A stretch of DNA of 12,916 nt from an uncultured Lachnospiraceae bacterium (GTDB lineage Bacteria > Bacillota > Clostridia > Lachnospirales > Lachnospiraceae). Both the position numbers and the translations under genes were made by a program. The stretch is from positions 1 to 12,916 of the forward strand of contig CAKRLN010000041.1 of assembly GCA_934359535.1 (NCBI GenBank). Reading direction: 5' to 3'. Numbering within the stretch: position 1 is the first letter of the stretch; each line of letters opens with the position of its first letter. The notes under the pieces are model-generated. The model made no database searches. It saw nothing but the letters and a program-made list of their open reading frames with translations, and had not been told where the DNA came from. Shown here one piece after another: positions 1 through 12,916 of the stretch.

Positions 1-700
1 GCAGATACCCAACGTATGGATCTAAACCTACTGTTTCTAAAGCTGATGCAATTTGATGATTCAACAACGTATATACAAAAGATAACATGGCATTTACATT
101 ATCCAATGGCGGTCTCTTATTTCTTCCTTCAAATGAAAAATCCTTTTTCTGCTGCAAAATAAGTTCATTGAAAACTCCAAAATAAATACTTGCTGCTTCC
201 CCTTCGTGCCCCCTTAGTTGTTCTTTTGATTGGGCATTTCGGATCATTTCAATCGATGTTTTTAATTGCATAGACGCATTCTTCACCCGATCTTTTTCTA
301 TTTGCATGCTGTGATCCCGAATCGCCCTTTCTAACACCCACCTTGCATTATATACTTTTCCTATAATACAATTTTTTGCAATTTCCAGACTGATCTTTTC
401 GTCTTTTGCGCTCATGTACTGTTGTTCCCGTAATACGACATTCCCCTTTGTCTTTCCAACAACCCGTGCCAAAAATTTTCCCTGCGGTGTTAAATAACAA
501 AGTGAAATATTACGCTCCATGCAAGCGCCCATAAGTGCTGGACTTGTTCCACGATATCCAAAGGAAACAATTCCTTCCAGATTATGCAGAGGAACTCTTC
601 CAATCTCTTTTTGTTCATCATAAACAACAATATTTTCCCCATCAAGTCCAAGATAGCTGTTTTCCGATGTCACATACAATGTATTTAACAGTTTTTTCAT
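1..700 (-). CDS. cas1: Cas1 integrase (type I-C), 3' part cut by the window edge
   Basis: Cas1 is the metal-dependent integrase subunit of the Cas1-Cas2 complex that inserts new spacers into the CRISPR array. Reading the minus strand from the ATG at 698-700 gives an uninterrupted 233-residue N-terminal part. It has the beta-rich start (MKKLLNTLYV), then the helical catalytic domain with the motif RGHEGEAAS, where E166 is the expected metal ligand, and PPLDNVNAMLSFVYTLL at about residues 197-213. The frame ends at LDPYVGYL, just before the expected catalytic His/Asp region, so about 100 residues lie beyond the left edge. The start overlaps the cas4 stop by 4 bp (ATGA), which suggests translational coupling. 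Cas2 and the array are expected further left. The assignment is very secure. Confidence 0.96.
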   Translation of the reverse strand, partial: MKKLLNTLYVTSENSYLGLDGENIVVYDEQKEIGRVPLHNLEGIVSFGYRGTSPALMGACMERNISLCYLTPQGKFLARVVGKTKGNVVLREQQYMSAKDEKISLEIAKNCIIGKVYNARWVLERAIRDHSMQIEKDRVKNASMQLKTSIEMIRNAQSKEQLRGHEGEAASIYFGVFNELILQQKKDFSFEGRNKRPPLDNVNAMLSFVYTLLNHQIASALETVGLDPYVGYL

Positions 701-1362
701 TCTGTCCCCTCCCCCAACATTCGCATCATATAAGTTTGAACCGATTCAGTTTTTTCCAGTTTTGGTAAACAGATATCCTTTAATGAACATGATGTACAGG
801 CTTTGCTTCTTTTTACTTTCGGGGTATAACTCCGCTTATAATACTGATGCATTTCCTGAAACATTTTTCTTACTTCTGCTCGTAATTCCTCGGAAATTTC
901 AACTTCTTCTCTTCTCCTTGTTTCACCATAAAAAATAGCACCCTTTAATACTTTTGTAGAAAACATCTCTTCCAAGCACATCGCCTGAGCCACAAGTTGC
1001 AGCTTGTCTTCTTCTGTTATCTTTGGCTTTCCTTTTTTATATTCAACCGGATAAATCGAATAACATCCCCGATGTCCAAAAAGCGAAACTCCATCTTCGC
1101 ATTTCTGAAATTCAACAATGTCACATTCTCCGCTTACCCCTAATTCTCTGGACGAAACTGGAAGTGCTCGCACAATAATGGTATCTTTCCGTTTTTCTGT
1201 CAAATACGGATCATGTGCTTTTTTATGCATCAATTCCCCGACTACTGTATGAACATTTTCTTCCCACTGCTGTTCTACATGAATCAATGCCCATTGTCTT
1301 CTGCAAAATTTAAAATGCTGTATCCCCGATATCATTAAATACTCTTCTTCTGTATATTCCAT
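697..1362 (-). CDS. cas4: Cas4 exonuclease of type I-C adaptation module
   Basis: Cas4 is an Fe-S nuclease that works with Cas1-Cas2 to trim prespacers and select those with the correct PAM. The protein shows one N-terminal cysteine (C20, CRRQW) and a C-terminal cluster C189-x2-C192-x5-C198 (KACTSCSLKDIC), the usual four ligands of the 4Fe-4S cluster. Between them are the PD-(D/E)XK residues: D81 in GECDIVEF, E107-x-K109 in PVEYKKGKP, and a QAM-containing helix after them. I place the start at the ATG at 1360-1362, giving 221 aa, which overlaps the cas7 stop as TGATG and has AAGGA 7 nt upstream. A TTG one codon earlier (1363-1365) is possible but sits too close to that site. The gene is tightly coupled to cas7 and cas1. 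Confidence 0.95.
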   Translation of the reverse strand: MEYTEEEYLMISGIQHFKFCRRQWALIHVEQQWEENVHTVVGELMHKKAHDPYLTEKRKDTIIVRALPVSSRELGVSGECDIVEFQKCEDGVSLFGHRGCYSIYPVEYKKGKPKITEEDKLQLVAQAMCLEEMFSTKVLKGAIFYGETRRREEVEISEELRAEVRKMFQEMHQYYKRSYTPKVKRSKACTSCSLKDICLPKLEKTESVQTYMMRMLGEGTE

Positions 1363-2273
1363 CAAATCATCCTTTTCACTTCAACTGAATCCGGAACCAC
1401 TTCTTCGTGAACCTGAACAATATAATCCTGATATTTTCTTGGATTTTCGACCTCTTCTTTCTTTTTTACTTCCACTGCATCAAATAACTTATATGCCGGA
1501 CAATCCCCTAATTCTTTGCTATGTTTAAAAACAATCAGTTCACGGACTGCCATTTTTCCTCTTGCCGCTGAATGGTCATTTTCAAACATATTAATGATTG
1601 CTTCCCAAAGAAGATCCAGATCCTCTTCGGAAAAACCGGTAACCTTTCTTGCAAGATTGGCTGAAACATACCCTTCCGCACGATATAGTCCATATGGTAC
1701 TATGCTTTTCCTTCCCATTTCTGTGCTCTTATTCTCAGCATCTTTTTCCGTTGTGATCGCAACTCTTGTTATGGTTACTTCCTGACTGATAATTGGATCA
1801 ATACTTCTCGCAAATCCAATCTGAACCGGTCCTCTTACCTGACCACAATTCATGGAAGCTTTTACAAACGTCGTCATAACTGCCCCAAAGGTACGGATGT
1901 CATAAAAATTATCACACATATAATCTCTTAACTTGATATCCGCATCTGGATCTGATTTCTTTAATTTTTTCAAAGTCTCCGTTACCTTTTTATCATCTGA
2001 TTCCTCTATTCCAAGACTTTCACAGGCTTTGCGGTCACTTCTGTTTAAAGGAACATCTTCCTTAATGTAAATCTGATATCCTTTTTCATCCTCTTTCACT
2101 GTTTCTACGTAATTGCGGATTTTACGCTTTAAACAGACATCTGTAACCAATCCTAACCCACTTTCCGGATCAATTCTTGGCATATTCCCTGCATCCGGAT
2201 CTCCATTTGGATTTCCATTTTCCACATCAAATAATACGACAAATTCATATCTGTTTTTTATTACTTCTCCCAT
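1362..2273 (-). CDS. cas7: Cas7 (Csd2), Cascade backbone subunit of type I-C
   Basis: Cas7 forms the helical filament that covers the crRNA spacer in the I-C Cascade. Each subunit's thumb kinks the guide so that every sixth base is flipped out of pairing with the target. The 303-residue protein begins with the Csd2 signature RYEFVVLFDVENGNPNGDPDAGNMPRID, split here as RYEFVVLFDVENGNPNGDPD at about residues 8-27 followed by AGNMPRID. It continues with a typical RRM-like body including FGAVMTTF and GPVQIGFARSIDPI. Length and motifs are normal for the family. The start directly abuts the cas8c stop (TAA followed by ATG) and has a GGGAGG ribosome site inside the end of cas8c. The stop overlaps the cas4 start. 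No damage is visible. Confidence 0.97.
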   Translation of the reverse strand: MGEVIKNRYEFVVLFDVENGNPNGDPDAGNMPRIDPESGLGLVTDVCLKRKIRNYVETVKEDEKGYQIYIKEDVPLNRSDRKACESLGIEESDDKKVTETLKKLKKSDPDADIKLRDYMCDNFYDIRTFGAVMTTFVKASMNCGQVRGPVQIGFARSIDPIISQEVTITRVAITTEKDAENKSTEMGRKSIVPYGLYRAEGYVSANLARKVTGFSEEDLDLLWEAIINMFENDHSAARGKMAVRELIVFKHSKELGDCPAYKLFDAVEVKKKEEVENPRKYQDYIVQVHEEVVPDSVEVKRMI

Positions 2274-5106
<2,833 letters not shown>

Positions 5107-5123
<17 letters not shown>

Positions 5124-5574
5124 ATATAACCTCACTTCCCACATATTCTAATGTATCCAATGCGGATAACGTATGAAAACTGATCTGATGCGTTGGATGA
5201 TTGAATTTTGCCAGTTCCCAAAATGCAGCTCTGGATATTTTACCGTCGATAAAATTCTGTATATAATTGTAAATCGTATCATCTGCCATTGGTCCTTCAA
5301 CGATATCATAATGATGAGGTACTCCATTTCGACACTGAACGATAAAATCCAGCCATTCTTCCGTCATCTCTGCAAAATACAAATAGTTTAATTCCTCATT
5401 CGGCGTATATTCGTATTGATTTAAATACCCCTTTCCCCCATAACGGCTTGCCCAGCGTTTTGCCTGTTCTGGCAGTCTGGTACAATAAAATCCAAAATAA
5501 AAATCTTTGTTATACTGTGCCTTTCGAATTTCAGGATATTCTACGATTTGTTTACTGCCATGGTATAAGATCAT
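5107..5574 (-). CDS. DUF3990 protein, ADP-ribosyltransferase-like, toxin candidate
   Basis: This 155-aa protein matches the DUF3990 family by its start ILYHGS (H5), FGFYCTRLPEQAKRWA at about 27-42, EEWLDFIVQCRNG at 72-84, the block YDIVEGPMADD at 89-99, and the terminal HQISFHTLSALD. DUF3990 is grouped with ADP-ribosyltransferase folds. H5 in YHG and the GFYxT tyrosine would be the NAD-binding residues of an H-Y-type site. No ART activity is established from this sequence. It is the first gene of the transcription unit that continues through its partner gene into cas5c-cas1. AAGGAG lies upstream of the ATG at 5572-5574, and a promoter lies about 50 bp further upstream. A toxin role is inference. 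Its position between cas3 and cas5c, a junction normally tight in I-C loci, is unusual. Confidence 0.85.
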
Positions 5575-5624
5575 CTGCCCTCTCCTTATTCAATCGTACT
5601 TTTTACTTTTTCTTCTCTAAACCG

Positions 5625-5653
5625 ACTATACTACACTATATGTCATAAATCAA
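5625..5653 (-). promoter_or_regulatory. Promoter of the DUF3990-cas5-cas1 unit
   Basis: On the minus strand, TTGATT (-35, at 5648-5653) and TATAGT (-10, at 5625-5630) are separated by exactly 17 bp. Transcription would start near 5618, leaving a leader of about 44 nt before the DUF3990 start. A second TATAGT at 5635-5640 makes a tandem direct repeat with a 4-bp gap over the -10 region. The -35 box lies at the far edge of the DNA that Cascade would cover if guided by the crRNA-like RNA. Confidence 0.65.
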
Positions 5654-5661
5654 GCTTTATA

Positions 5662-5686
5662 TTTTTCTATTTAAAATATTATTGAA
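5662..5686 (-). promoter_or_regulatory. Self-target (PAM + protospacer) of the crRNA-like RNA
   Basis: Read on the minus strand, TTC at 5684-5686 is followed from 5683 by AATAATATTTT. This equals the first 11 nt of the spacer-like stretch that begins at 5772 on the plus strand. Pairing continues to guide position 22 with mismatches only at positions 12 and 18, then becomes poor. TTC is the canonical I-C PAM, and positions 12 and 18 are flipped out in type I Cascade. A bound Cascade would reach the -35 box at 5648-5653. The AT-rich composition raises the chance of coincidence, but the PAM, seed and mismatch spacing agree. Confidence 0.7.
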
Positions 5687-5710
5687 TTAAGTATTATTAT
5701 TAAGCATTTG

Positions 5711-5739
5711 TTGCAGAATTTTTATAATTCATTTATACT
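5711..5739 (+). promoter_or_regulatory. Promoter of the crRNA-like RNA
   Basis: On the plus strand, TTGCAG (5711-5716, 3 of 6 matches to the -35 consensus) and TATACT (5734-5739, 5 of 6 to the -10) are separated by 17 bp. The expected start at about 5746 coincides with the first bases of the CRISPR-repeat-like element. This promoter is divergent from the DUF3990/cas promoter, with about 57 bp between their -35 boxes. Confidence 0.55.
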
Positions 5740-5746
5740 AATTCTA

Positions 5747-5771
5747 GTCTGGAAATCCAGTGGATTGAAAT
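5747..5771 (+). repeat. Solitary, shortened type I-C CRISPR-repeat-like element
   Basis: The element starts with GTC and ends with GTGGATTGAAAT. The ending matches the conserved 3' end of type I-C repeats, and many I-C repeats also begin with GTC. In between, CTGG-AAAT-CCAG forms a 4-bp stem with a tetraloop, so the element is about 25 nt instead of about 32 nt. The usual long GC-rich stem is shortened while the 11-nt handle is complete. No other copy exists in the window, so it is not an array. The locus array repeat is outside the window and cannot be compared directly. Confidence 0.7.
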
Positions 5772-5789
5772 AATAATATTTTTAATAGT

Positions 5790-5836
5790 AAAAAAGTAGC
5801 GATGTGAATTATCTCTTCACACCGCTGCTATTTTAT
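5790..5836. terminator. Bidirectional hairpin terminator between cas3 and the crRNA-like gene
   Basis: The inverted arms 5795-5808 and 5816-5830 form a stem of about 13 bp (one G-T pair and one mismatch) around a 7-nt loop. On the minus strand it is followed by six T (AAAAAA at 5790-5795 on the plus strand), so it terminates cas3 transcription. On the plus strand it is followed by ATTTTATT, a weaker tail that would end the crRNA-like RNA. It insulates the DUF3990-cas5-cas1 unit from cas3. Confidence 0.8.
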
Positions 5837-5838
5837 TG

Positions 5839-7968
5839 TTACCAGTATAACGCAATTCCATCATCAATCGAAAAATCAATCCCGCAGCTTTCCGAATACT
5901 GCTCTGGAAATACCAATTCAAAAAAGTCCTGCATGTCCTCTGTAACCGGCTGCACCATTCCGGCTCCATATAATTTTTCAAAGAAATTATCATACACCTG
6001 AATGCAGTATTGTCCGGCTTTTCGCATTCTTTCTTTTGATATTCCTTTTATTTTAATCTCCTCCAGCAGTTCCTCTGCCTCTTGTTCTTTTCCAATAAAA
6101 ATTGTTTTCGTATTCTCTTCAATCAATTGAAATTCACGTCCAACCTTCGCAAAATGATAATCCTTGTTTTTAAACTCCTCCATAATATGTTTCTTATCCA
6201 GACTATCTCCCCGTGCCTTATATAAACGCACAAAATAATTTGTAATGCATGCCAGATCTGCCAGATTCCCATAGTCATGTAATACAGATTTTGCAACATC
6301 AATCTGCTGCCTTTGATTCCGTACCGCCGGCTCTCCTTCCAGATCAAAAACAAAAACCCTGCTTTCTTCTGCACTTCTTTTTCCTTCACGGTTGCATCTT
6401 CCTGCTGCCTGTATCATAGAATCAATTCCCGCAGTCTGCCGGTATACACATGCAAAATCCAGATCAACACCTGCCTCTACAAGACTTGTCGATATCAGAA
6501 TACATTTCTCATTCTTCGATAACCGTTCACGAACACACACAAGAACCCGTTTTCTGTGTTTCGGATACATACTCGTTGATAAATGGTATACCCCTTCTCC
6601 CTCAAGCATATGATAAAGCTCCTGCGCATCTTTCTTTGTATTCACAATACATAAAACACTCCGTTCTTCTGCAAGTCTTTCTGTAAGGTACCCTTTCGAA
6701 ACAGAACCAATATTCTGATATGTCACACGTTCAAAAAATCGAAATTGTTCCTCCATCCTCGGACACAATTCTACGATCTCTTCTACATGTGGAAAAAATT
6801 GATCTAGCGATGGCTGAGTTGCTGTGCATAACATAGCACTTACCCCATAACTTTCTGTCAATTCCTGTATCATCGACAGACAAGGCTTTAAATAGTCTAT
6901 CGGAAGCATCTGTGCTTCATCAAAAACAATAACACTATTTGCAATATTATGAATTTTTCTGCATTTTGATGATTTATTCGAAAATAATGATTCAAAAAAT
7001 TGCACATTTGTCGTTACCACAATCGGTTTGTCCCAGTTTTCACTTGCAAGCTGCATTGGACGAAACTCTTCCGATCCGTCATAATCTACATTGCAATGAT
7101 TTTCCAGCACATTATCGAAGCCAACAATCTCACGAAAAACCTGTGCATTCTGCTCTATGATACTGGTATACGGAATAACATAAATCACACGATCCATCTT
7201 GTTTGCTACCGCATGTTTTAACGCAAATGCAAAAGATGCTATTGTTTTCCCCCCTCCCGTTGGTACTGTTAACCGGAAAATTCCCTTTTTTCTGCTTCCT
7301 TCTTCCAGACAATGCTTCAGTATTTCTGTTCTTCTGCCATTTACACTATCGATATCCTGATTCAAAAGCCAATCCGAAATATAATTTTCTAATTTTTTCA
7401 AAAGAACATCCATCGGCTGTCCCGCCATTCTTTCAGTTTGTCCATTCTTCATAAAAAATTCTGTGTCCAGAAAATCCGCATCAACAAGACAGGAATAGAG
7501 CATTCTTATAAAAGTGCTCAGGGAAAAATCCAAATTTTTCCCCTGCTCTATTTTAATTGGAGCAGATTGAAGTTCCGGAATCTGAATTTCCTCTTTATAT
7601 GCCTCATAATCCTCAATCTTTTTTTCTCTTCTCCCACACAAACTGGAAGAAATCGCTGAATTTCCATAATCTGGAATCCCAGCATGATGTCCTGCAATGC
7701 AATAACTCAAAAATGGATAATACCCTCCTAGTTTCATACAAAGCTGTGCCCCAGCAGTCGCATGATCCACCTTACGGTTAGAATTTTCTTTTATTTTTTT
7801 CTGGAATGCGTCGGAATATTTTCCGATATCATGCAACATCCCGCAGCAATACCCCCAATCTTCTTTTCCAAACTTAGCTGCAAATCTTCCTGCCAGTTGC
7901 GCAGTCCCGGTTAAATGCGCCTTAACTGTCTGTGTTCTTTCCCCATCCTTATGTGCAATATAATCCAT
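5839..7968 (-). CDS. cas3: Cas3 HD nuclease-helicase of type I-C
   Basis: Cas3 is the nuclease-helicase recruited by Cascade to unwind and shred target DNA. The 709-residue protein has an N-terminal HD domain (H18; H46-D47 in MLHDIGK; H69; H94-H95 in AGHHAG; D163) and a superfamily 2 helicase. The helicase has Walker A VPTGGGKT at 235-242, motif II DEAQ at 350-353 (in place of DEAH), motif III TAT at 382-384, and motif VI QAAGRCNR at 520-527. All catalytic motifs are intact, so the system should be able to cleave. The start at ATG 7966-7968 is preceded by a weak AAGG site. Unlike standard I-C operons, cas5c does not follow directly: a terminator, a divergent RNA gene and two foreign genes separate them. 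Cas3 therefore has its own transcript. Confidence 0.97.
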   Translation of the reverse strand: MDYIAHKDGERTQTVKAHLTGTAQLAGRFAAKFGKEDWGYCCGMLHDIGKYSDAFQKKIKENSNRKVDHATAGAQLCMKLGGYYPFLSYCIAGHHAGIPDYGNSAISSSLCGRREKKIEDYEAYKEEIQIPELQSAPIKIEQGKNLDFSLSTFIRMLYSCLVDADFLDTEFFMKNGQTERMAGQPMDVLLKKLENYISDWLLNQDIDSVNGRRTEILKHCLEEGSRKKGIFRLTVPTGGGKTIASFAFALKHAVANKMDRVIYVIPYTSIIEQNAQVFREIVGFDNVLENHCNVDYDGSEEFRPMQLASENWDKPIVVTTNVQFFESLFSNKSSKCRKIHNIANSVIVFDEAQMLPIDYLKPCLSMIQELTESYGVSAMLCTATQPSLDQFFPHVEEIVELCPRMEEQFRFFERVTYQNIGSVSKGYLTERLAEERSVLCIVNTKKDAQELYHMLEGEGVYHLSTSMYPKHRKRVLVCVRERLSKNEKCILISTSLVEAGVDLDFACVYRQTAGIDSMIQAAGRCNREGKRSAEESRVFVFDLEGEPAVRNQRQQIDVAKSVLHDYGNLADLACITNYFVRLYKARGDSLDKKHIMEEFKNKDYHFAKVGREFQLIEENTKTIFIGKEQEAEELLEEIKIKGISKERMRKAGQYCIQVYDNFFEKLYGAGMVQPVTEDMQDFFELVFPEQYSESCGIDFSIDDGIALYW

Positions 7969-8056: not shown

Positions 8057-8806
8057 TTATACGAACTCCAATAACTTCTTGTCCATGCAGAATTCAAATC
8101 CCATCTTCTTTAATCCAACCTTATCAAACTGAATAGCTATCGAAGTACCTTCAATGGCTGTAATCTCACCAATACCAAACGCCTTATGTCTTACCTGTTT
8201 TCCTACAACATCGGCTGGTATTACCATATTTGTTTTCTGTTCTGACACCCTCGAAGCAACATACATAGGCTTCTTTATTCCTTTTTTCTTTGTAGCAGTC
8301 ATCATCTTTGCGTATTCAACGTCCACATTCTTACCACGACTTTTGTAATCATCCATGTCCTTAAACACAAACATTTGTGGTTTCTTTACATCATTATCTG
8401 GTACAGGTCTTATTGGGAACATCCATACTTTTCGATCATTACCATCTTCACCGGGCTGCACATCTGTGTATGGCTTGCTCACAAGCTCTATTCTTCCGCA
8501 GTAGATATATTCTCCAGCATCAATAACTTCAAACAGATGAACATCAACTCCATTATAATCAGACTCAGCCAATGTGGCATTCTGCGCCCAATGAATATCT
8601 TGGTTGCCTGATTTGCCCATGCCCGTATAATGTAAAACTCCTCCAATCCACTTATCATGATAAAGACCTTTTGTATAATCCGATACGATAACAAGTGTAT
8701 TCGTTGTTCTTGACCGGCGCATACCTCCCATATTTCCGCATTTGAATATTTCAACAATATCTGCGTTCTTTATAATTTGTCCTATTTTTAGTCCAGGATT
8801 AAACAT
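8057..8806 (-). CDS. ScoMcrA-type SRA-like domain protein without nuclease domain
   Basis: Residues 1-135 (KIGQIIKNADIVEIFKCGNM, then GGMRRSRTTNTLVIVSDYT, GLYHDKWIGGVLHYTGMG, and VHLFEVIDAGEYIYCGRIEL) resemble the SRA-like domain of ScoMcrA-type HNH enzymes, which reads modified DNA bases. In those proteins an HNH nuclease normally follows. Here the remaining residues are a linker and, at about 200-249, a small beta domain (VGKQVRHKAFGIGEITAIEG) like the tudor-like tail of UvrD/PcrA helicases. I see no HNH or PD-(D/E)XK motif, so the 249-aa protein may be a reader or adaptor, not a restriction enzyme. The start is secure: AAGGAGG at 8814-8820 lies 7 nt upstream of the ATG. The frame stays open upstream to a stop at 8939-8941. 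It probably belongs to the same defence island as cas3, which follows 88 bp later. Confidence 0.65.
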   Translation of the reverse strand: MFNPGLKIGQIIKNADIVEIFKCGNMGGMRRSRTTNTLVIVSDYTKGLYHDKWIGGVLHYTGMGKSGNQDIHWAQNATLAESDYNGVDVHLFEVIDAGEYIYCGRIELVSKPYTDVQPGEDGNDRKVWMFPIRPVPDNDVKKPQMFVFKDMDDYKSRGKNVDVEYAKMMTATKKKGIKKPMYVASRVSEQKTNMVIPADVVGKQVRHKAFGIGEITAIEGTSIAIQFDKVGLKKMGFEFCMDKKLLEFV

Positions 8807-9083
8807 AAATACGCCTCCTTCAATATCATCTATTCCACTGCCAAGTCTGCCTCTTAATACCGAGAGGCTTAAACTGCGGTCGGCTCTGACAACAATCCCA
8901 GTGCCACAACCTATGACATCTAATCCACAGCCTAAACCCTACCGCATTTTCCGACCATCCACTTTTTCTTTAATCAGACCGAAAAGTAGATATGTTTCCA
9001 TACAAGAAAACCGAGCTTTCCGCAAGGCTTCTCTGATGATGCTAACCTCGCAAAAAGCCCGGAAATACGCCACTTTTCAGCCT
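8807..9083. other. 277-bp gene-free junction; possible end of an integrated element
   Basis: No convincing gene is present. On the minus strand, one frame is open over most of this stretch, broken by one stop at 8939-8941, and runs into the SRA-like gene. It includes an ATG-started 20-codon ORF (8939-9001) with no clear ribosome site. A perfect 6-bp stem (GCCTCT at 8849-8854 against AGAGGC at 8863-8868, 8-nt loop) lies 43 bp before the SRA-like start and could be a leader structure. Composition is intermediate. I see no good terminator for rlmD here. The stretch lies between the AT-rich island and the GC-richer chromosome. Confidence 0.4.
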
Positions 9084-10238
9084 TTATTTATCTTTTCTTG
9101 ACAGCAAACAGACCGTCTCCACATGCCTCGTATGCGGGAACATATCAAACGGCTGAATGTCCGTGACGGCATACTTTTTTTCAAGTGTTTTCAAATCTCT
9201 TGCAAGCGCGGCGGGGCTGCATGAAATATAAACGATACGTTTCGGCGCAATTTTCACGAGCGCATTAAGAAACATTCTGTCCGCGCCCGCACGCGCAGGG
9301 TCCATTATCACCGCGTCAAACCGCGTCCCGATTTTCGCCTTTTCGCGCAGATATTCGCCCGCGTCACCCCTGTTGAACGCAATGTTCCGCGTAAGCCCAT
9401 TCTCCTGACAGTTGCGGACAGCGTCGCGCACCGCCGAGGCGTTGTACTCAATTCCCTGAACCTGTCCCGCGTAATCGGAAGCGATTATCCCGATAGTCCC
9501 GATTCCGCTGTATGCGTCGAGAAGCGTTTCTTTTTTGTTCAGCGCTGCCGCGTTGATCGCGTAACTGTACATTTTTTCGGTCATTATCGGATTAACCTGA
9601 TAAAACGACCGCGGCGAGATTCTGAAACGCTTTCCGCAAAGCTCATCGGTTATGTATCCGTCGCCGAAAAGCGTTTCGTTCTTTTCGCCGAGCATCATCA
9701 TATCCTCGTTTTTGTTCACCGAGAATGTTACGGTCGTTATTTCGGGAAAACGTTTCACAAGTGCGTTCACAAAATCCCTCTTTTTCGGAAACATCGGCGA
9801 CCCGCCGACGATAGTGACCAGCACTTCCCCGCTCTTCTTCCCTACGCGAACCAGAACGTGCTTCAAAAACCCCCGTCCCGTTCCCTCGTCGTAGGGCATA
9901 AGCTTGAATGAGCGCATAAGCTCGCGAATCCCGAGGATTATTTTGTCGGCGATCGGATCGTTGAGCATACAGCTGTCAACGCCCACAACGCCGTTGCGTG
10001 AGGACTGATATACTCCCGAAATGATCCTGCCGCTGCGGTCGCTGCGAAACACCGCCTGAACCTTGTTGCGGTAATTATACGGGTTTTCCATTGGGGTTAT
10101 TTTGTTCACTTTTCCGAATTTTCCAAGCAGCTTTTCAACGTCCTTTTGTTTCCATTCAAGCTGCTGCTCATATGTCATATTTGATAGCTGACAGCCGCTG
10201 CATTTTTTCGCAGCAGGGCATTTTCTCTCGGTAATCAT
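9084..10238 (-). CDS. rlmD: RlmD/RumA-family rRNA uracil-5-methyltransferase
   Basis: Enzymes of this family transfer a methyl group from SAM to C5 of specific uridines in 23S rRNA. The 384-aa protein has the Fe-S cluster cysteines C7, C13, C16 and C90, the motif FYQVN (212-216), the SAM site DAYSGIGTIG (241-250), DPAR (313-316), the nucleophile C340 in ISCSPAALARD, and the catalytic base E374 in RHVETVCLL. It lacks the N-terminal TRAM domain of the second copy at the right edge and starts directly at the cysteine cluster, so it is the short form of the family. AGGAG lies 7 nt before the ATG. It is the last gene of the right-hand operon, 56 bp after the patatin-like gene. The exact rRNA position (U747 or U1939 type) cannot be told from sequence. 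Confidence 0.9.
   Translation of the reverse strand: MITERKCPAAKKCSGCQLSNMTYEQQLEWKQKDVEKLLGKFGKVNKITPMENPYNYRNKVQAVFRSDRSGRIISGVYQSSRNGVVGVDSCMLNDPIADKIILGIRELMRSFKLMPYDEGTGRGFLKHVLVRVGKKSGEVLVTIVGGSPMFPKKRDFVNALVKRFPEITTVTFSVNKNEDMMMLGEKNETLFGDGYITDELCGKRFRISPRSFYQVNPIMTEKMYSYAINAAALNKKETLLDAYSGIGTIGIIASDYAGQVQGIEYNASAVRDAVRNCQENGLTRNIAFNRGDAGEYLREKAKIGTRFDAVIMDPARAGADRMFLNALVKIAPKRIVYISCSPAALARDLKTLEKKYAVTDIQPFDMFPHTRHVETVCLLSRKDK
9099..9130. other. Candidate attachment-site core in the 3' end of rlmD
   Basis: The DNA encoding the RHVETVCLLS motif at the C-terminus of the methyltransferase (minus-strand core GGCATGTGGAGACGGTCTG) lies 15-45 bp inside the sharp GC change. The 3' end of rum/rlmD genes is a known target of integrative conjugative elements in streptococci (for example ICESp2905), where the core overlaps this conserved motif. 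No integrase gene and no second copy of the core are in the window, apart from the paralogue's similar codons, so this is a positional inference. Confidence 0.35.
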
Positions 10239-11180: not shown

Positions 11181-11645
11181 TCAACTTTCCTCGTTCTGAC
11201 CTAAAAACTGTACATTAAGTTCAACATTTTCGCAGTCATATCCGACAATTTTCATCCTGTTTTTCCCCTCCGAAAAAGGAACCGATTCAGCCGAACCGCT
11301 TAATTCATCGGAATCGCACTCGATCAGCACAGTAATATTTCCATTTCCGTCAATAAGCACCAACTTCGCCGTTCCGCGCGATATTTTCATCAAAATTTCG
11401 GCGGAAGCGCAGTATTCCGCTTCTGCTTCTGCCGTCCACACAGTCTCACGTCCGTCGAATTTTTCAGCCGTGAATATACAGCCGTTATCCGTCTGATTGT
11501 ACAACGCACCTACTTTTGCAAACCTGTCAGACTGTTCGGAAATTTTCTCTGCGGAATCGTATTCATTTTTCGCAAACTCGTTGCTGCATCCCGCCATGCA
11601 AAAACAAAGCAGGACAGCAGCAAATCCACATATTATCTTTTTCAT
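11181..11645 (-). CDS. Small secreted lipoprotein of unknown function
   Basis: The 154-aa product starts MKKIICGFAAVLLCFCMAGC. This is a short basic N-terminus, a hydrophobic stretch and a lipobox-like MAGC, so C20 would be lipidated after signal peptidase II cleavage. Methionine at lipobox position -3 is less common than leucine. The mature part (about 134 residues) is acidic and beta-rich by appearance (GTAKLVLIDGNGNITVLIEC, then GKNRMKIVGYDCENVELNVQ). It resembles a small extracellular beta-sandwich, but I do not recognise a family. I chose the ATG at 11643-11645 because GGGAG lies just upstream and the signal peptide then begins at residue 1. A start 9 codons earlier would spoil the signal. 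The ATG overlaps the upstream methyltransferase stop (ATGA), so translation is probably coupled. Confidence 0.8.
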   Translation of the reverse strand: MKKIICGFAAVLLCFCMAGCSNEFAKNEYDSAEKISEQSDRFAKVGALYNQTDNGCIFTAEKFDGRETVWTAEAEAEYCASAEILMKISRGTAKLVLIDGNGNITVLIECDSDELSGSAESVPFSEGKNRMKIVGYDCENVELNVQFLGQNEES

Positions 11646-12916
11646 ATTACTCCCTTTCTTAGCAGCAGACATACCGTTTCGACATGCCTCGTCCTGCTGA
11701 ACAGATCAACTCCCTGCACCGTCCTCAGCTCATACCCGCGTTCGGTAAGCGCCCGACAGTCACGCGCCGCCGTGACAGCATTACACGACACCATTACAAT
11801 GCGTTCGGGTGAAAACTTCACAATATTCCCGATAGTTTCTTCGTCGCAGCCCTTACGCGCGGGGTCGACGATAACAACGTCCGCCTTTATGCCCTCGGCG
11901 GCAAGTTTATGCGTAATCTCGCCTGCGTCCCCGCAGAAAAACCGCACATTATCCGCGCCGTTCAGACGTGCATTTTCACGCGCGTTTTCGACCGCGCTTT
12001 CGACTATTTCCACGCCGATAACGCTTTTCGCCCTGTCCGCCATAGTCAGCCCGATAGTTCCCGCGCCGCAGTAAAGGTCGATAACCGTTTTGCCGTCAGG
12101 CTGCGCAAGCTCCGTTGCTTTTTGATACAAAATCTCTGCCATAGGCGTGTTGACCTGATAAAACGACCGCGAGGAAACCGCGAACCGCTTCCCGCACATT
12201 CTGTCGTATATCACGGGTGCACCGAAAAGCAGCCTTTCCTCGTCGCCGTAGATAACGTTCGTTTCCACCTTGTTTACGTTTGCGACAATGCTCTTTATTT
12301 CCGAGAATTTTTGGCTCAGCGCTGCCGCGAGAGCTTTAAGCTGCGGAACTGCTCTCCGCACGACCAGCGTTACTCCGATCTCGCCCGAGTGATGTCCGCG
12401 ACGAATACATATCGAACGCAGAACTCCGCTGTGTTCCGCCTCATTATAGGGCGAAATTTTCAGCTCATGCGCGAAGTCGAGCGCCGCGCAGCGTATATCC
12501 GAAAAAATATCCTGTTCAAGCCGACATTGCTCGCAGCATATAACGCGGTGGCTGCGCTCCGCAAAAAATCCGCAGACGGTTTCGCCCTGTTCATTTTTGC
12601 GCACCGGATACTGCGTTTTGTTGCGATAGCTGTCAATGTTGCAGTTTCCGATAATCGGCAGAAACTCGGGTTCAAGCCCGCCTATTCGGGTGAACGCGTC
12701 ACGGATAAAGCCGTCTTTCGCCCTAAGCTCCGCTTCATATGAAATGTGGCGAAAATCGCACCCGCCGCACTTCCCGAAAACTAAGCAGTCTACGTCGATC
12801 CTGTCGGGCGACGGGGTCAATATCTCCTCGATTTTGCCGTAGCAATGACTTTTGTTCACTTTTACAATACGCACACGAAGGCTGTCGCCAACGGCGCTGA
12901 GCGGAACGAATACAAC
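11642..12916 (-). CDS. rlmD: RlmD/RumA-family rRNA uracil-5-methyltransferase with TRAM domain, 5' end beyond window
   Basis: This is a second methyltransferase of the same family as 9084-10238. The frame is open to the right edge (VVFVPLSAVGDSLRVRIVKV). An apparent GTG start at 12872-12874 is internal, because the residues before it are the beta strands of a TRAM RNA-binding domain. The true start is outside the window. Seen in order are the partial TRAM domain, the cysteine cluster (visible residues C44, C50, C53, with CEQC later), FYQVN, DLYCGAGTIGL, DPARKGCD, the nucleophile in VSCNAVTAARD, and the base in RTRHVETVCLLL. All catalytic residues are intact. Its stop overlaps the lipoprotein start by 4 bp. 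Which of the two copies modifies which rRNA site cannot be assigned here. Confidence 0.92.
   Translation of the reverse strand, partial: VVFVPLSAVGDSLRVRIVKVNKSHCYGKIEEILTPSPDRIDVDCLVFGKCGGCDFRHISYEAELRAKDGFIRDAFTRIGGLEPEFLPIIGNCNIDSYRNKTQYPVRKNEQGETVCGFFAERSHRVICCEQCRLEQDIFSDIRCAALDFAHELKISPYNEAEHSGVLRSICIRRGHHSGEIGVTLVVRRAVPQLKALAAALSQKFSEIKSIVANVNKVETNVIYGDEERLLFGAPVIYDRMCGKRFAVSSRSFYQVNTPMAEILYQKATELAQPDGKTVIDLYCGAGTIGLTMADRAKSVIGVEIVESAVENARENARLNGADNVRFFCGDAGEITHKLAAEGIKADVVIVDPARKGCDEETIGNIVKFSPERIVMVSCNAVTAARDCRALTERGYELRTVQGVDLFSRTRHVETVCLLLRKGVI

Follow-up and report, generated by a model that had tools for sequence, protein, structure and literature searches.

What is a lone, degenerate CRISPR repeat doing between cas3 and the next gene of a type I-C locus, and why does the sequence behind it match the neighbouring promoter? 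The locus lies in the window, as we call the whole 12,916-nucleotide stretch of Lachnospiraceae DNA that was analysed. An earlier note on this DNA had proposed a self-targeting arrangement, in which a spacer-like guide matches the promoter beside it, and tests of chance, of guide–target covariation and of drift at positions 6 and 12 favour that reading. The interpretation developed here, to which we give a probability of about 0.88, is that the gap encodes a cas-regulating RNA of the CreR type, in subtype I-C, which would send Cascade to the -35 element of the promoter of DUF3990-orf2-cas5-cas1.

Parts of the locus and the match in the window

The repeat and guide, on the plus strand, occupy the gap between two minus-strand genes, cas3 (5839..7968; HD and helicase domains), which lies upstream of the gap, and DUF3990 (5107..5574; PF13151, E 4.1e-51; PDC-M10A). 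A promoter predicted by consensus match on the minus strand (5625..5653; TTGATT, 17 nt, TATAGT) precedes an operon in the order DUF3990-orf2-cas5-cas8c-cas7-cas4-cas1. DUF3990 is thus its first gene, followed on the same strand by the partner gene orf2 (4683..5123, likely start 5123; PDC-M10B), cas5 of subtype I-C (4019..4681), cas8c (Csd1; 2274..4022), cas7 (1362..2273), cas4 (697..1365) and cas1 (2..700), which is truncated at the window end. The -35 box that the earlier note had placed at 5648-5653 was found as described, with TTGATT at 5653-5648 and TATAGT at 5630-5625.

Within the gap, a guide-RNA promoter is predicted on the plus strand at 5711..5739 by consensus match only (TTGCAG, 17 nt, TATACT); its -35 is weak in the window, and many relatives show TTGAAN-17-TATANT at the equivalent place. 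The degenerate type I-C repeat, or mini-repeat, follows at 5747..5771 (plus strand) and consists of GTC, a short CTGG/CCAG hairpin (5749-5760) and an 11-nt handle, TGGATTGAAAT (5761-5771). There is no CRISPR array within the window, and the handle was compared with the arrays of relatives, whose repeats end in the same way: it is identical to the final 11 nt of the repeat in the array of the close relative L001, the Roseburia porci locus, which is the closest with a species name. A stem of at least four pairs precedes the handle in 29 of 33 loci with such a repeat, versus 2029 of 6600 randomly placed positions in these gaps, a difference that is weak evidence taken alone. The spacer-like guide occupies 5772..5795 on the plus strand, its conserved-pairing part being 5772-5788, and a stem-loop at 5798..5826, found by folding 5740-5838, is the probable end of the guide RNA. 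The folded region is more stable than its shuffles (z -5.46), with the post-guide hairpin as the main contributor. On the minus strand this hairpin resembles a terminator placed behind cas3; a terminator scan of the plus strand called none at 5798..5826. A search of Rfam over 5400-6000 of the window matched no family with an E of 1 or below.

The guide, AATAATATTTTTAATAGTAAAAAA (5772-5795, plus strand), was compared with the minus strand running down from 5683, AATAATATTTTAAATAGAAAAATA. Direct alignment reproduces the identities reported in the earlier note, at positions 1-11, 13-17 and 19-22, and places mismatches at 12, 18 and 23. The TTC said to stand directly before the match is found on the minus strand at 5686-5684; its assignment as the PAM (5684..5686) draws on this adjacency and on a preference for TTC across relatives. 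The conserved-pairing part of the target, or protospacer, is the 17 nt at 5667..5683 on the minus strand; in the window the match continues as far as 5662, and a footprint of 34 nt would extend to 5650.

With positions 6, 12 and 18 left out, this TTC-adjacent pairing scores 19/19. The earlier note had suggested shuffles as a check on coincidence, and an equally good PAM-adjacent match arose in 0 of 20,000 rounds in which the guide was held fixed and the target side was dinucleotide-shuffled, the best reaching 16. Shuffling the whole gap (n = 5,000) gave a best score of 15, and 3,000 shuffles in which the PAM was not required gave 17. Elsewhere in the whole window, no other TTC-adjacent site reaches 11/15 over positions 1-17.

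Guide and target in related loci

A genome scan for DUF3990 gave 101 loci, of which the best 80 were taken. Among these 80, the 23 most similar, L001-L023 (identity at least 74%), have I-C cas genes or fragments, and the other 57 are without a cas gene in the DNA examined, orf2 adjoining DUF3990 in 55 of the 57. Whole-genome searches with Cas5 or Cas8c added further I-C loci, for a total of 136, or 97 when only loci distinct in the last 120 bases of the gap are counted. Targets were scored in 33 of these distinct loci, those with an antisense repeat whose gap measures about 120 bases or more: 24 DUF3990-first (the window included), one orf2-first (L164) and eight cas5-first. The score, out of 15, covers positions 1-17 minus 6 and 12, and allows one 1-nt gap at 11-13, for which 1 is deducted.

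A TTC-adjacent target scoring at least 13/15 lies in the same gap in 31 of the 33 loci, versus 5 of 936 mispaired guide–gap combinations, a control in which only guides differing at five or more of 17 positions were combined with foreign gaps. The two remaining loci are L123, with a weak target (12/15), and L019, which has the repeat and a best target of only 11/15. Eight of the 31 good targets need the 1-nt gap at 11-13, beside the flipped base 12, to reach their score (L013, L015, L020, L022, L176, L146, L164 and L149), and a bulge near that base may be tolerated in guide–target pairing. When the PAM is not required, TTC still stands before the best site in 28 of the 33 gaps searched with their own guide (26 outright, two as ties), compared with 106 of 936 mispaired combinations, for which only the first-found site was counted.

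The guide is present in 25 of the 32 distinct DUF3990- or orf2-first gaps and was not seen in L003, L005, L006, L007, L010, L011 and L023. Of these seven, L003 and L007 end at contig ends, L005 is without cas3 in the sequence examined, the cas genes of L006 are broken, and the gaps of L010, L011 and L023 are short (44, 44 and 112 bases). Counting L112, L180, L189 and L190, guides occur in 37 of 97 distinct I-C loci; in the other 60, the search patterns found none within the sequence examined. The guide of L112 was first picked by eye and then scored (15/15, on the opposite strand). The other three come from a scan upstream of cas3 in the 37 loci with sequence there: in L180 (14/15), L189 (14/15) and L190 (15/15), cas3 stands close to cas5, and guide and target are found upstream of cas3. 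Among cas3–cas5 gaps shorter than 120 bases with upstream sequence, only 2 of 12 (L180 and L189) have a guide upstream of cas3. Sense-orientation CRISPR repeats are also seen upstream of cas3, in L014, L023, L175, L178 and L181. In L094 and L178 a sense repeat-like element, TGTGGATTGAAAT, directly precedes the cas5 ribosome-binding site, and would therefore lie within the cas5 mRNA leader.

No antisense guide was found in 56 cas-free DUF3990 loci (57 in total among the best 80 of 101, one being too short upstream); one of them, L077, has a single sense motif without a target. In a sample of the phylum, Cas8c is present in 84 of 329 genomes. Sixty further I-C loci from this sample were scanned with a strict handle pattern and scored without a mispaired control: L238 and L267 reach 14/15, L241 (sense repeat) and L272 reach 13/15, and the remainder fall below 12/15. 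As far as sampled, the guide occurs mainly in Lachnospiraceae and is not a general feature of I-C.

Position by position, the conserved pairing has a regular structure. An identity profile was drawn from 24 of the 33 sites, those that are ungapped, with nine gapped sites omitted, L019 among them. Across the 24, guide and target are identical at every site (1.00) at positions 1-5, 7 and 10, and at 0.79-0.96 of sites at 8, 9, 11 and 13-17. The earlier note had expected the flipped positions to drift freely, and 6 and 12 do so, with identities of 0.33 and 0.17 versus 0.30 and 0.14 in mispaired combinations. At positions 8 (0.88 versus 0.67 mispaired) and 9 (0.96 versus 0.88) the excess is small, and agreement there is uninformative because the letters are almost invariant. 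From position 18 onward identity is near the mispaired level. The profile therefore describes pairing conserved as three five-nucleotide segments, 1-5, 7-11 and 13-17, stopping at 17. A functional seed continuous to position 22, as the earlier note had it, does not fit this pattern: relatives keep the pairing only to 17, with background identity from 18. Since the conserved match stops there, the window's match at 19-22, a run of A, is probably without function; relatives lack this A-run.

A degenerate repeat followed by an incomplete match could also be what is left of a decayed one-spacer array, a relic of autoimmunity whose self-targeting spacer has been eroded by mutation. Decay, however, would not hold 15 positions at 0.79-1.00 identity while the guides themselves diverge, nor would it produce matched changes in guide and target, and we regard such a relic as very improbable. 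Matched changes are what the related pairs contain. Covariation was counted, skipping gap columns, in seven pairs chosen by hand from the Cas5 tree, six of them supported sister pairs and one (L013/L015) near relatives. Joint change of guide and target had been named in the earlier note as a test, and the outcome is in its favour: outside positions 6 and 12 the guide changed 19 times and the target copied 18 of these changes; at those two positions it copied 0 of 5. The distant pair L176/L183 supplies nine of the 18 copied changes, and the other six pairs give 9/9. Changes in the target only number six, three of them at 6 or 12. Examples include L004/L008, with matched changes at 1, 4 and 11; L001 and the window, at 13 and 17; and L154/L155, where changes at 11 and 14 are matched and those at 6 and 12 are confined to the guide. 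Guide–target agreement is favoured because targets were picked as the best match to the guide; the mispaired control, at 5/936, bounds this effect.

These results also bear on two explanations that need no guide RNA. The window has two copies of AATAATATTTT, oppositely oriented and about 90 bp apart in AT-rich DNA, as the half-sites of an ordinary repressor might be, so that the inverted repeat would be a protein operator or a DNA hairpin. An operator should keep a constant sequence across loci; instead the copies diversify together, positions 6 and 12 excepted. Further, one copy is preceded by a repeat handle and the other by TTC, and the copies have the same orientation in 7 of 33 loci (the weak L019 included), which leaves this explanation only a slim chance. 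Coincidence in AT-rich DNA is less credible still: the gap is indeed AT-rich, and one locus alone could mislead, but the shuffles, the mispaired controls, the TTC preference, the identity profile and the covariation all oppose it, and its probability is close to nil.

The CreR-type reading places the target where a bound Cascade could interfere with the operon promoter. In 26 of 33 loci the target precedes the first gene and lies on the coding strand; in 20 of these 26 a 34-nt footprint ends within six bases of a predicted -35 or covers it, a count that is not independent because promoters were sought near the target. In the window, the span runs from -115 to -78 and the -35 is at -82. In the other seven loci the opposite strand has the best target: in L021, L184, L114, L115 and L168 it scores at least 14/15 and its first base is 15-77 bases from the start codon, and the remaining two are the weak targets of L123 and L019. 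In L016 (2983-5239), about 2 kb of extra, insertion-element-like sequence separates guide and target from DUF3990.

Ten of 33 loci have a target PAM within the predicted -35 of the guide itself, a position which hints that Cascade may also dampen the guide's own promoter in some loci; the overlap is not seen in the window. The ten loci are L002, L008, L013, L015, L016, L174, L144, L149, L154 and L163. Tandem target pairs occur in four of them (L008, L016, L144 and L149).

DUF3990, its partner and the question of a guarded toxin

DUF3990 (PF13151) is assigned to the Pfam ADP-ribosyltransferase (ART) clan (PMC7955679). The predicted model of the window protein (pLDDT 88) matches ART-fold proteins at moderate scores, with the RES toxin of Xre-RES and ParT on top; the fold is predicted to be ADP-ribosyltransferase-like. 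A sequence search of the PDB with DUF3990 gave no match at E below 0.5, and NCBIfam gave none for either DUF3990 or orf2. Pfam at E 10 likewise gave no match for orf2. PADLOC assigns the adjacent genes to a candidate defence system, as PDC-M10A and PDC-M10B (E 7.9e-79 and 9e-69).

It is conceivable, therefore, that the guide mainly silences a candidate toxin, as in CreTA or CrePA, with loss or inhibition of Cascade releasing DUF3990 to harm the cell. DUF3990 leads the genes behind the targeted promoter, its best structural matches are the toxins of the Xre-RES and ParT-ParS pairs, and the PDC-M10 pair is known also without cas genes. Further, L164 keeps orf2 behind the regulated promoter (about 2189-3035) and DUF3990 was not found there, as expected if orf2 is a protective partner. 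However, guide and target occur in 12 cas5-first loci (8 + 4) in which DUF3990 is absent from the DNA examined. In the Cas5 tree, all 29 DUF3990/orf2 rows fall inside one supported set of 37 rows (100/94), against nine guide rows outside it; here L164 is grouped with the DUF3990 loci, a locus truncated by a contig end is marked as having no guide, and rows that lack a near-complete Cas5, such as L006, L021 and L149, are omitted. A possible antitoxin, orf2, moreover shares the operon of DUF3990. We consider a guide devoted mainly to guarding DUF3990 to be unlikely.

The guide thus has a broader distribution than DUF3990, an argument for cas regulation as its primary role. The earlier note had brought DUF3990 and cas5-cas1 together under control of one promoter; as a prediction for the cas operon this stands, whereas control specific to DUF3990 is not borne out by the 12 cas5-first guide loci. 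A joint role, regulator and suicide switch at once, in which one Cascade-guided RNA represses both the cas genes and the ART-like module that leads them, is a tentative suggestion, improbable on balance. Were it true, a phage anti-CRISPR that disables I-C Cascade would release Cas proteins and ART together, and the cell would either regain immunity or halt growth.

Relation to known systems and a proposed mechanism

Among the papers listed in literature searches, none reports an I-C CreR or DUF3990 beside cas genes. The original CreR paper reportedly appeared in Cell Host & Microbe in 2023. Its survey may already include I-C cases, since a review calls CreR widespread in type I. Release by array crRNAs or by anti-CRISPR proteins is also reported for CreR in the review literature. 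CreR autorepression is reported in I-B, I-E and V-A (PMC13131331).

The window locus has the sequence features of CreR and would work like it. As with CreR, a crRNA-like RNA would come from an ectopic degenerate repeat outside an array (here with the 11-nt array handle and a shortened stem); a spacer-like sequence gives a partial PAM-adjacent match to the cas-operon promoter, in this case a predicted one; and the effector is a type I or V-A effector from the regulated operon in the same locus, here I-C Cas5c and Cas8c. The locus differs from CreR in its subtype, in the single degenerate repeat followed by a hairpin, in the pairing in three segments to position 17, in the overlap of target PAM and predicted guide -35 in ten loci, and in the ART-like gene and partner that lead the operon in one clade. 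Unusual here are the single repeat, the 17-nt three-segment pairing and a predicted ART-fold gene leading the operon.

Several features are shared with CreA of CreTA: a degenerate repeat, a TTC PAM, pairing at 1-5 and 7-11, and freedom at 6 and 12 (PMC8501985, PMC9458426). The haloarchaeal CreA of H. hubeiense needs pairing at 1-5 and 7-11, next to TTC, and its positions 6 and 12 are freely mutable; the H. hispanica CreA has a single repeat and a terminator (PMC8501985). Unlike CreA, which silences a small RNA toxin, the promoter here serves protein-coding genes, including cas5-cas1, and positions 13-17 are paired as well. CrePA offers another parallel, in that Cascade and a crRNA-like RNA silence a potentially harmful protein gene; its reported toxin CreP typically has a KilA-N domain (PMC12737573). 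The only Pfam match in the first gene of the operon, by contrast, is PF13151, and the toxin here would be DUF3990, which, in a further departure from CrePA, shares its operon with cas genes and a partner. DUF3990 and orf2 match PDC-M10A and PDC-M10B and are adjacent as in PDC-M10, but here the pair stands between cas3 and cas5, behind a promoter that Cascade would target.

We infer the following course of events. A short transcript from the predicted promoter at 5711-5739 would contain one degenerate I-C repeat, the guide and a terminator hairpin. Cas5 would probably cut it at the short hairpin so that the 11-nt handle is kept, and the processed RNA would be taken up by the locus's own Cascade (Cas5, Cas8c and Cas7), which would recognize TTC, pair at 1-5, 7-11 and 13-17 while ignoring the flipped bases 6 and 12, and then occupy or abut the -35 of the promoter of DUF3990-orf2-cas5-cas8c-cas7-cas4-cas1. 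Because the pairing ends at 17, RNA polymerase would be blocked and Cas3 would not be licensed. Shortage of Cascade, whether array crRNAs occupy it or an anti-CRISPR blocks it, would release the operon. An engineered I-C Cascade without Cas3 does repress with one repeat, one spacer and a TTC PAM (PMC10865793).

If this mechanism is correct, RNA-guided cas autorepression reaches subtype I-C, mainly in Lachnospiraceae as sampled. The loci would then amount to a natural, repeated experiment on the bases that Cascade reads, with 1-5, 7-11 and 13-17 kept and 6, 12 and everything beyond 17 free, and one could directly test how little pairing suffices for I-C binding without cleavage. That an ART-like gene leads an operon of this kind, putatively repressed, suggests that CRISPR self-regulation and toxin-like defence may be connected.

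The surroundings of the operon add some minor observations. A gene next to cas3 (8057-8806) has as its sole match a sub-threshold one to a UvrD tudor domain. At about 8900-9100 the G+C content of the window rises from about 0.39 to about 0.5 beyond 9 kb, which looks like insertion of a cas block into a richer genome. Further along, two members of the tRNA (uracil-5-)-methyltransferase family lie close to each other (9084-10238 and 11642-12916), with a patatin-like gene in between.
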